DNA of 64,000 bases, taken from contig NZ_SRMF01000001.1 in assembly GCF_004768465.1 (NCBI RefSeq), forward strand, positions 1,279,893 through 1,343,892. The letters are read 5' to 3'. Of the stretch, positions 49,009 to 64,000 are shown piece after piece. The notes below the pieces were generated by a model. The model saw only the letters and a program-made list of their open reading frames with translations, had not been told where the DNA came from and searched no databases. Numbering within the stretch: position 1 is the first letter of the stretch; each line of letters begins with the position of its first letter. The position numbers and the translations under genes are program-made. Origin of the DNA: Natronospirillum operosum. GTDB lineage: Bacteria; Pseudomonadota; Gammaproteobacteria; Pseudomonadales; Natronospirillaceae.

Positions 49009-49072
49009 GGGTGCCCTGCCAGCTCGTTTGCGGCCGTCCCTGGCCGCAAACGGTCTCACAGGGCATGCATCC
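49009..49072 (-). repeat. Second hairpin element, diverged inverted copy
   Basis: Bases 49011-49056 resemble the reverse complement of the 63-base core at 51346 and 58782 (CCCTGCCAGCTCG and CGGTCT shared). Its main stem is TTTGCGGCC/GGCCGCAAA (49027-49035 and 49042-49050) where the other copies have CTGCGCACA/TGTGCGCAG. Both strands of the stem have changed together while the TCCCT loop is kept. Confidence 0.7.
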
Positions 49073-49096
49073 GGCAGGCGACTCCAGCCGTGGCTC

Positions 49097-49291
49097 CCAA
49101 CTCCTGTAGCGAGGCACGCAAGTGCCGACAATGAGGCGCAAGCCGAATTTGTAGCGAGCGACGCAAGTCCCGATAATGAGGCGCAAGCCGAATTTGTAGC
49201 GAGCGACGCAAGTCGCGATGGGCGGCGCAGCCGCCCTTTATAAGGGGCCTCACGGCCCATCGGCACTTGCGTGCCTCGCTACAGGAGTTGG
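49097..49291. repeat. REP-like block A: 45-base tandem units within a 31-base inverted repeat
   Basis: Perfect 31-base inverted arms (49097-49127 and 49261-49291) enclose direct 45-base units beginning TGTAGCGAG at 49105, 49150 and 49195. Each unit has a GTAG foot and a hairpin with loop GCAA; the stems read GGCAC/GTGCC, GCGAC/GTCCC (imperfect) and GCGAC/GTCGC. A GGGCGGC-GCA-GCCGCCC palindrome lies in the middle. This is the layout of a bacterial interspersed mosaic element. Confidence 0.8.
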
Positions 49292-51137: not shown

Positions 51138-51292
51138 GTAGCGAGCGACGCAAGTCGCGATGGGTGGCGCCAGCCGCCCTTGCTCGGGGCCTGGGGCCCA
51201 TCGGTCTAATCGGGATTTGCGTCGCGTTATCGGGACTTGCGTCGCGTTATCGGGACTTGCGTCGCGTTATCGGGACTTGCGTCCCTCGCTAC
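51138..51292. repeat. REP-like block B with a 20-base tandem array
   Basis: A plus-oriented REP (GTAGCGAGCGACGCAAGTCG, 51138 onward) faces an inverted array. Three 20-base units (TTATCGGGACTTGCGTCGCG and one variant) run from 51207, ending in a complete inverted REP at 51269-51292 with stem GGGAC/GTCCC. The centre between them (GATGGG ... GCCCATCG) matches blocks A and C. Confidence 0.8.
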
Positions 51293-51331
51293 AGGAATTG
51301 GGAGGCACAAGTGGTGCGGCCGCCGCGCGGC

Positions 51332-51422
51332 GGTACCCTGACCGCAGACCGTCTGCGCACAGGGATGTGCGCAGTCGAGCTGGCAGGGATGCCGTTTTTT
51401 GCGTGTCTGCGGTCAGGGTACC
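51332..51422. repeat. Second hairpin element, copy 1 (63-base core 51346-51408)
   Basis: A core of 63 bases is identical to 58782-58844. It holds two hairpins, CTGCGCACA-GGGA-TGTGCGCAG (51353-51374) and GGCA-GGGA-TGCC, the latter followed by GTTTTTT. Here the core is flanked by a perfect 18-base inverted repeat (GGTACCCTGACCGCAGAC, 51332-51349, and its complement at 51405-51422). Confidence 0.85.
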
Positions 51423-51496
51423 CCGCAAAGGCGGCATGCCAGAGAGTGGCACAAGGGGCATGTGCCCGAGCATGGCGACGGGAATGTGGCAGCATT

Positions 51497-51542
51497 AATC
51501 GGGACTTGCGTCGCGTTTATCGGGACTTGCGTCCCTCGCTAC
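51497..51542 (-). repeat. REP-like pair at the 3' end of the M23 peptidase gene
   Basis: A truncated unit (AATCGGGACTTGCGTCGCG) and a complete inverted REP (51519-51542, stem GGGAC/GTCCC, loop GCAA, GTAG foot) lie just downstream of the stop at 51560. They are the same words as in block B, in the same orientation. Confidence 0.75.
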
Positions 51543-58626: not shown

Positions 58627-58730
58627 GTAGCGAGGAACGTGTAGCGAGGGACGCAAGTCCCGATTGGGACCGGCGCCCCCCAATATGAAGGGCAGCTACG
58701 CCGCCCATCGCGACTCGCGTCGCTCGCTAC
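58627..58730. repeat. REP-like block C
   Basis: A truncated GTAGCGAG word (58627) is followed by a complete plus-oriented REP (58641-58664, stem GGGAC/GTCCC, loop GCAA). A complete inverted REP follows (58707-58730, stem GCGAC/GTCGC, loop GCGA when read on its own strand). The centre contains GCCGCCCATCG as in block A. The two REPs face each other. Confidence 0.8.
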
Positions 58731-58763
58731 AGGAGTTGGGAGGCACGGTTGGAGTCGCCTGCC

Positions 58764-58860
58764 GGGTGCATGCCTGTCGTGAGACCGTCTGCGCACAGGG
58801 ATGTGCGCAGTCGAGCTGGCAGGGATGCCGTTTTTTGCGTGTCTCACCGGGCATGCACCC
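58764..58860. repeat. Second hairpin element, copy 2 (63-base core 58782-58844)
   Basis: The core is identical over 63 bases to 51346-51408. The flanks differ from that copy but again form inverted arms: GGGTGCATGCC (58764-58774) with GGCATGCACCC (58850-58860), and GTGAGAC with GTCTCAC. It follows block C by 33 bases, beginning CAGGAGTTGGGAGGCAC, the same linker found after block B. Confidence 0.85.
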
Positions 58861-58956
58861 GAGCGTGGCGACGGTCCGATTGGCACAGGCAGACCAAAAG
58901 CCCTGACGGCACCATGCGCAAGGGTCACAGCCTACAACGGCCCCACTCACCAACCA

Positions 58957-62616: not shown

Positions 62617-62640
62617 ATCGGGACTTGCGTCCCTCGCTAC
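62617..62640 (-). repeat. REP-like element D in the flgF leader
   Basis: Read on the minus strand this is GTAGCGAGGGACGCAAGTCC plus CGAT, with stem GGGAC/GTCCC and loop GCAA, identical to elements in blocks B and C. It lies between the sigma-54 start site (near 62651) and the flgF ATG, so it would be transcribed in the leader. Confidence 0.8.
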
Positions 62641-62849: not shown

Positions 62850-64000
62850 TTAGCGCAGGTTGATAATGGTCTGCGTCACCGCGTTGGTGGTCTCTATGGT
62901 CTTCGCGCTGGCCTGATAGTTGCGCTGCGCGATGATCAGGTTCACCAACTGCTCCGACAGGTCGACATTGGAATCTTCCAGCGAAGACGATTTGATATTG
63001 CCCAGTACCCCTGTACCCGCCGAGCTTATGGTGACACTGCCCGAGTCGGCTGTTTCCGTCCACTCGGTAAAGCCCGAGGGATCCAGCCCTTCCGGGTTGC
63101 GGAAGTTGGCCAGGGCCACCTGACCCAGCTTCTGGTTTTCCCCGTTGGTGTAACGGGCAAAGATGAAGCCTTCATCATCGACACTGATATCCCGCAGGCG
63201 GCCGGACGCATAACCATCCTGCTGGAAGTCGTTGCGCGCGAACGAACCACCGTACTGCGTGGTGTCACGGAAGTTGATCTCGAAGTTGGAGGTGACGTTG
63301 GGGTCTCCCAGCGGCAGACGTCCGCCTTCGGCTGAGGTCTGCGGAGGATAGGCACCGGTAGGATTACCTTCCTCATTGCGCGGAATCCAGTTCGAAATCA
63401 GCCAGTCACCGGAAGCGTCCTCATCCAGGGTACCGTCCGGGGAGAAGAACATGGTGAAACTGGCCTGCGTCGGTTCCTGGTTCTCGGGGAACGGCAGGTC
63501 GGGATCCGGCTCGCCAATATCACGCCCATCGATCTGCGCATAGACGGTCCAGGAGTTCAGGTCCTGCGGGCGATCCGGATCATCCGGGTCCTTCACGAAG
63601 AAGAGATCCAACTGGTGCGATGTACCCAGCGAGTCATAGACGGTGATCGAACCACGCTCGTTGTAGGTCTCCGAATCCTGCGGATCAAACCGGTTGATCA
63701 CATAGTCTTCGAAATCATCGCTGGTCAGACCATTGAACAGGCCGGTTACCCTGGGGTCCGGCTGCCGCATGGTCACACCCTCATTGAGGATGATCTCGAC
63801 CGTGCCACCGACGCGGGCAGTGTTTTCCGCATCCTCGGTACCACCCAGCGTGATCGGTGAGGTGTTGGTCTCACCCAGCAGGGTCAGGCGGTCTGCGGTG
63901 CGGGGTGACTCGACCTCGACCGTGATATCAGCACCTGAGGCCGAGCGCAGTACCAGGTCTCCGGCGTCATTCACTGAAGCCGTGATACCGCGCAGTGTAC
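62850..64000 (-). CDS. flgE: Flagellar hook protein FlgE (5' end beyond the window)
   Basis: The last 383 residues of the hook protein are present; the frame continues past the right edge. The conserved C-terminus is clear: SNVDLSEQLVNLIIAQRNYQ and SAKTIETTNAVTQTIINLR. The middle contains YDSLGTSHQLDLFFVKD, a FlgE-type domain. The upstream part (DAGDLVLRSASGADITVEV) resembles the surface repeats of flagellin-like proteins, suggesting a large hook protein as with FlgK. A terminator follows it. Confidence 0.93.
   Translation of the reverse strand, partial: TLRGITASVNDAGDLVLRSASGADITVEVESPRTADRLTLLGETNTSPITLGGTEDAENTARVGGTVEIILNEGVTMRQPDPRVTGLFNGLTSDDFEDYVINRFDPQDSETYNERGSITVYDSLGTSHQLDLFFVKDPDDPDRPQDLNSWTVYAQIDGRDIGEPDPDLPFPENQEPTQASFTMFFSPDGTLDEDASGDWLISNWIPRNEEGNPTGAYPPQTSAEGGRLPLGDPNVTSNFEINFRDTTQYGGSFARNDFQQDGYASGRLRDISVDDEGFIFARYTNGENQKLGQVALANFRNPEGLDPSGFTEWTETADSGSVTISSAGTGVLGNIKSSSLEDSNVDLSEQLVNLIIAQRNYQASAKTIETTNAVTQTIINLR

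Follow-up and report, generated by a model that had tools for sequence, protein, structure and literature searches.

Unit A, a new species-specific class of GTAG-type REPs arranged as heterotypic REPINs in Natronospirillum operosum, a genome whose single RAYT gene is flanked by another REP

The BIMEs of Escherichia coli are intergenic and consist of heterotypic facing pairs of REPs, with arrays of such pairs in tandem. In Thauera, the GTAG-1 repeats have 5-bp stems and unpaired dinucleotides that separate the GTAG from the stem (PMC3733652), and the REPtron Mb of Marinomonas, with a 5-bp stem, a 4-nt loop and a distance of 2 nt from the GTAG, is cut by its own TnpA-REP (PMC8266576). Feet of the sequence GTGGCGAG belong, in Pseudomonas, to the RAYT-linked REPs PF7 and PF17; REP-RAYT pairing is usually specific, and a model predicts the gradual decay of REPs after RAYT loss (PMC3686654). 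Loss of the RAYT with REPs remaining is documented in E. coli (PMC8049555, PMC3733652).

The 64-kb stretch of N. operosum DNA analysed here (the window) carries a repeat, unit A, which is best parsed as GTAGCGA, a 5-bp stem, the loop GCRA, the returning stem and GAY. Ten copies are present, as against 0.39 expected, and none of 100 shuffles reached ten; they are grouped at 49.1, 51.1, 58.6 and 62.6 kb. An earlier note on this DNA had described a recurrent unit at four places, which is real, and had parsed it one base out of register: the G of its GTAGCGAG already belongs to the stem, which it opens, and its literal pattern (GTAGCGAG, five bases, GCAA, five bases, CGAT) has no match. The features are as follows.

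49106..49129, plus strand: unit A, stem GGCAC/GTGCC, loop GCAA, 3' end GAC (pattern match)
49151..49174, plus strand: unit A, recombinant stem GCGAC/GTCCC (pattern match)
49196..49219, plus strand: unit A, stem GCGAC/GTCGC; left half of a REPIN with 49259-49282 (pair fold, z -5.3)
49220..49258, no strand: REPIN spacer with two GC-rich hairpins, GGGCGGCGCAGCCGCCC and GGGCC....GGCCC (sequence, fold)
49259..49282, minus strand: unit A, stem GGCAC/GTGCC; right half of the REPIN with 49196-49219 (pattern, fold)
51138..51161, plus strand: unit A, stem GCGAC/GTCGC (pattern match)
51209..51268, minus strand: three truncated 20-nt half-units ATCGGGACTTGCGTCGCGTT in tandem, without foot (sequence)
51269..51292, minus strand: unit A, stem GGGAC/GTCCC (pattern match)
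51519..51542, minus strand: unit A, stem GGGAC/GTCCC, adjoining another truncated half-unit at 51498-51518 (pattern match)
58641..58664, plus strand: unit A, stem GGGAC/GTCCC; left half of a REPIN in the flgI-flgJ gap (pair fold, z -4.8)
58707..58730, minus strand: unit A, stem GCGAC/GTCGC, loop GCGA; right half of the REPIN with 58641-58664 (pattern, fold)
62617..62640, minus strand: lone unit A, stem GGGAC/GTCCC, in the flagellar cluster just beyond flgE, which ends at 62850 (pattern)

Within the window the stem is thus GGGAC/GTCCC in four copies, GCGAC/GTCGC in three, GGCAC/GTGCC in two and recombinant in the one at 49151; nine loops are GCAA and one GCGA, and the last base is T in nine copies and C in one. 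The half-units at 51209-51268 and 51498-51518, which have no GTAG foot, are probably slippage products of unit A. An Rfam search of the window gave no match above the gathering score.

Across the host assembly (4.34 Mb in 32 contigs, completeness 98.8%), the genome-wide count for which the earlier note had called came to 245 copies at no more than one mismatch, by the fixed-pattern search on which all our genome-wide counts of unit A are based, against six for a reversed control pattern. A covariance model (150 candidates scored per genome) gave at least 157 matches at E≤0.001. Our detailed inventory holds 193 units from the stretches read, a part of the copies in the genome; among these the stem is GGGAC/GTCCC in 100, GCGAC/GTCGC in 49 and GGCAC/GTGCC in 25, a few being of mixed type, GCAA loops number 125 and GCGA loops 65, and the foot is GTAGCGA in 163 and GTAGTGA in 25, the GTAG tag itself being present in all but four. 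As expected of a GTAG-tagged REP, unit A is a palindrome of 20-40 nt with GTAG at one end, and a single unit, folded as DNA, gives the hairpin of the parse.

The covarying stems that had been noticed from the letters are borne out. Over 22 distinct copies, standard pairs make up 95.5% of the five-pair stem, compared with 83.0% after shuffling, and the covariation score is 0.313, compared with 0.108; for neither value was any of 500 shuffles as high, and both pairing and covariation are above those of any slid register. The signal is limited to stem pairs 2 and 3 and to three sub-families, so independent covariation events are few. Against the master types, 170 copies have no mismatch, 18 have one, three have two, three have three and none has four; this near-uniformity suggests that the family is young or still being renewed.

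Adjacent units within 150 nt face each other (+/-) in 55 cases, versus 14 in which they stand back to back (-/+). In the stretches read, 52 facing pairs lie within 70 nt, and their gap of about 42 nt (mostly 41-44) holds two GC-rich hairpins, of the types GGGCGGCGCAGCCGCCC and GGGGCCNNNGGCCCC; each pair forms a single long hairpin, interrupted by single mismatches and capped by these two spacer hairpins (z -4.8 to -7.0). The pairs therefore have what defines REPINs: inverted REPs, feet outward, regular spacing and a hairpin fold of the pair. The facing pairs drawn in the earlier note at 49.1 and 58.6 kb are real (49196/49259 and 58641/58707); the partners that it placed at 51.1 kb exist (51138/51269), but they are 107 nt apart, a distance accounted for by the three truncated ATCGGGACTTGCGTCGCGTT half-units in between.

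The two halves of a pair tend to differ. Equal stems occur in both halves at four of 44 loci, where 15.1 would be expected (P 6e-5); between head-to-tail neighbours the stems are equal in 48 of 58 cases. Unequal halves make the long hairpin imperfect, which would let the REP hairpins compete with it and would leave the inverted repeat less unstable. Tandem arrays of whole pairs also occur, with a period of 118 at 509 kb on contig C1, and arrays of single units have periods of about 25 or 45. The C1 array (C1:509245-509927) comprises six whole REPINs at a period of about 118 and is a candidate hypervariable locus for strain typing. On contig C11 (L163:1-1475), a gene of 383 aa is flanked by two nearly identical REPINs; we considered it as a carried gene and rejected this, since it does not recur in the stretches read and a gene of like size on contig C27 is unrelated to it.

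By simple gene calls, 22 of the 55 unit A clusters lie between genes of the same direction, 16 between converging genes and four between diverging genes; nine overlap an ORF call, and at least one of those calls is spurious. Such an extragenic bias, mainly towards unidirectional and converging gaps, is that of GTAG-tagged REPs. The window sites lie beyond the genes for a DUF898 protein and a peptidase M48, beyond a peptidase M23 gene, between flgI and flgJ, and beyond flgE.

Among the genomes searched, the family is confined to the host species. Unit A was above chance in none of 96 relatives, the sister species included; the covariance model found none in 21 other genomes of the family (150 candidates scored per genome), and nothing rose above chance in about 390 genomes of the order. 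A degenerate pattern had no match in 84,980 GTDB genomes, a collection that possibly leaves out the host and its very near relatives, and no unit A was found in the viral contigs of IMG/VR, where the host's near relatives may likewise be missing. The sister species is the only other species of the genus, at a DNA identity of 73-82%, and there all four window sites are without unit A and have shorter intergenic gaps (flgI-flgJ: about 100 bp, as against 458 bp in the host). The comparison of empty sites that had been proposed earlier therefore gives four sites empty in one sister species, but with breakpoints that are unreadable at 73-82% identity. Presence thus differs between related genomes, the host on one side and the sister species and all others on the other, with the host species represented by one genome.

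A second dispersed repeat, of about 120 nt, adjoins the REPINs (in the window at 49014-49095 on the minus strand, 51310-51437 and 58752-58878). Folded as RNA (-81.9 kcal/mol, z -6.6), it forms a very extended outer stem that encloses two hairpins whose loops read AGGGAU, and the outer stem exists in at least two alternative versions around one common core; it has no Rfam match. It is common to the sister species, which accounts for most of its 53 DNA matches, and occurs there without unit A.

There is exactly one RAYT in the host genome (C1:498079-498468), found by both PF01797 and NF047646 (118 bits to the latter), and at E up to 10 neither model revealed a further RAYT, whether intact or decayed. 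In the protein, of 143 aa, the HxH motif (DHLHW) and the tyrosine downstream are in place, and it matches the E. coli TnpA-REP structure 4er8 (E 1e-4). It had been suggested that a RAYT gene flanked by unit A be sought; in this assembly, which is incomplete, the single RAYT carries instead a different element at its flanks, REP B (GTAGGAGCTCGCCCCGCGAGCGAT). Here GTAGGAGCTCGC-CCC-GCGAGCGAT faces GTAGGAGGCCAG-CCC-CTGGCCGAT in an asymmetric pair with GTAGGA feet. The stretch with RAYT and REP B (L031:1456-1887 and flanks; C1:497700-498600) has a 96-base N gap upstream. In the sister species, the RAYT (L182:3950-4699) has a third REP type, GTAGGCGCCGGCCTTGGCCGCGC facing GTAGGCGCTGGCTTGCCTGCGCT, so that the REP at the RAYT gene differs completely between two congeneric species.

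The earlier proposal of a REP moved by a RAYT thus stands as regards REP- and BIME-like anatomy, copy number, extragenic position, facing pairs and the existence of a RAYT gene, but not as regards the repeat at that gene, which is REP B. The same holds for the observations named as speaking against it, namely that the unit be absent elsewhere in the genome, or that this and related genomes have no RAYT and strains do not vary in presence: unit A is abundant genome-wide and there is a RAYT, but one flanked by a different REP. For this reason, the resident RAYT is a possible rather than an established mover of unit A.

We conclude that unit A is a new GTAG-type REP/REPIN class: real, species-specific and ordinary in kind. 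The observations as a whole are very probably best explained by such a class being copied as a heterotypic REPIN by a RAYT. The unit of copying would be the REPIN, that is, two facing units with different stems, about 42 nt apart and with two GC-rich hairpins between them. The pair could fold back as single-stranded DNA, during replication; a RAYT (TnpA-REP, an HUH-type single-strand transposase) would recognise its GTAG feet and hairpins and may cut the element and copy it into other intergenic places, and head-to-tail arrays would arise later through recombination or slippage. Some 250 near-identical copies, with one anatomy, covarying stems and heterotypic facing pairs, are present in one species, and we infer that a RAYT was the agent of their spread. 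Against this reading stand the REP B flanks of the sole RAYT, the negative search for a further one at E up to 10, and about 110 RAYT loci examined elsewhere, none of which has a recurrent REP with a GTRGCGA foot at its flanks.

Given that the sole RAYT is flanked by another REP, the cognate RAYT has most likely undergone recent loss or fallen into an assembly gap. To this, which would make unit A an orphan REPIN family with its RAYT missing from the assembly (by recent loss or in a gap between contigs), we give an even chance. Contigs C8, C10, C11, C27 and C32 end within unit A arrays and assembly N-gaps lie inside such arrays, so a gene of about 450 bp between REPs could have been missed, against which stands the assembly completeness of 98.8%. 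The feet also point to a separate enzyme, being CGA in unit A and GA in the REPs of the resident RAYT: in named genomes, the foot of the REPs at 80 close relatives of this RAYT is GTRGGAG with few exceptions, and in no case GTRGCGA. With the sole RAYT tied to REP B and its relatives never found with this foot, unit A is an orphan as far as the assembly goes. E. coli, where REPs have outlasted their RAYT, supplies the precedent (PMC8049555, PMC3733652). Decayed copies are, however, nearly absent, which leaves little time since a loss; that no decay is seen suggests a recent loss, an assembly gap, or help from the resident RAYT.

Such help is the main alternative to a lost or unassembled cognate RAYT: the resident RAYT, cognate to REP B, would mobilise unit A in trans, with a substrate switch under way, which we consider possible but unlikely. 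Unit A and REP B have in common the GTAG foot and the GA...GA around the stem, a Thauera relative of this RAYT recognises (judging from its position at the gene) a REP with the stem-loop of unit A, and the resident enzyme, with its HxH motif and tyrosine retained, fits both the family model and 4er8. The RAYT also lies in a part of C1 rich in unit A, only 3% of positions matching its count of unit A loci within 50 kb in a post hoc comparison; in the A-rich region at 418-445 kb, looked through for another enzyme gene, there is no transposase among the genes (chorismate synthase, NusG-like, LptF/G, epimerase, ferrochelatase and others). Yet the REPs directly at the RAYT are REP B, unit A beginning only 0.75 kb downstream, beyond folE; REP B-type words number about 50 in the genome, as against about 245 copies of unit A; and specific REP-RAYT pairing is the usual case (PMC3686654). 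That a REPIN family of about 250 copies should have expanded with no cognate RAYT, through the RAYT of another REP and with a substrate switch in progress, is to our minds distinctly doubtful.

It is improbable that no transposition was involved, with recombination or gene conversion spreading the units and RNA or DNA hairpins being kept for a host role (3' mRNA stabiliser, terminator, gyrase or nucleoid site). The tandem arrays, with periods of 118 or about 25, are recombination products, the sites are mostly downstream of genes, and both the GNRA loops and the GC-rich hairpins of the spacer are structures that RNA would adopt. But 55 dispersed clusters with unrelated flanks, none of them in the sister species, call for movement, and terminator-like sites in the region are not in excess (five, versus 7.0 expected from shuffles). 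Chance or an assembly artefact can be dismissed with near certainty, being already refuted by the counts, the covariation and the dispersed single-copy flanks.

Returning to a heterotypic REPIN copied by a RAYT, we have here a new REP class with a clear sequence signature. What is unusual is that so large and uniform a REPIN population occurs in an assembly that lacks a cognate RAYT. Of the two REP families in this genome, the one away from the single RAYT gene is the commoner and seems to be of recent origin; whether a RAYT is bound to one REP can be cleanly tested in such a genome, and the near-obligate heterotypic pairing, with its mismatches in the long hairpin, provides a testable rule for pair recognition or stability.

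Compared with known systems, the words of unit A are less foreign to Pseudomonas than the earlier note had held: the foot GTGGCGAG matches known classes there, occurring in PF5-PF7 and PF17 (PMC3686654). PF7 (GTGGCGAGGGGGCTTGCCCCCG) and PF17 (GTGGCGAGGGAGCTTGCTCCCGCT) have, like unit A, the foot GTRGCGAG and a GGG-rich stem (PMC3686654); unit A differs from them in having GTAG rather than GTGG and a GCRA tetraloop rather than a CTTG-type centre, and they have known cognate RAYTs, unlike unit A in this assembly. The GTAG-1 REPs (Di Nocera et al. 2013, PMC3733652) resemble unit A in the GTAG tag, the unpaired GA on both sides of a short stem (5 bp in Thauera), the alternative complementary stem bases in sub-families and the head-to-head dimers. 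The REPs beside the Thauera RAYT genes L091 and L124 read GTAGGA-GCGAC-GCRA-GTCGC-GA, their stem-loop GCGAC-GCRA-GTCGC being identical to that of unit A; in contrast, unit A has an extra C after the GTAG (GTAGCGA), is species-specific and was not found beside a RAYT. REP B, in the same genome, likewise has a GTAG foot, a hairpin, a GA end and asymmetric facing pairs, but its foot is GTAGGA, its stem is longer, its loop is CCC, it has about 50 copies, it flanks the RAYT and it has relatives in the sister species. For a geometry like that of unit A, the Marinomonas REPtron Mb is the biochemical precedent (PMC8266576). The REPINs of P. fluorescens SBW25 (PMC3116915) are also inverted REPs with feet outward, fixed spacing, a hairpin fold of the pair and very high copy number, whereas the host halves carry different stems and the host spacer has two strong hairpins. 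In E. coli the stem of the REP is long and bulged and the RAYT of the genome is cognate, two differences from unit A; the BIMEs of E. coli (y and z REPs, TnpA-REP 4er8) nevertheless resemble the host pairs in being heterotypic, arrayed in tandem and intergenic.
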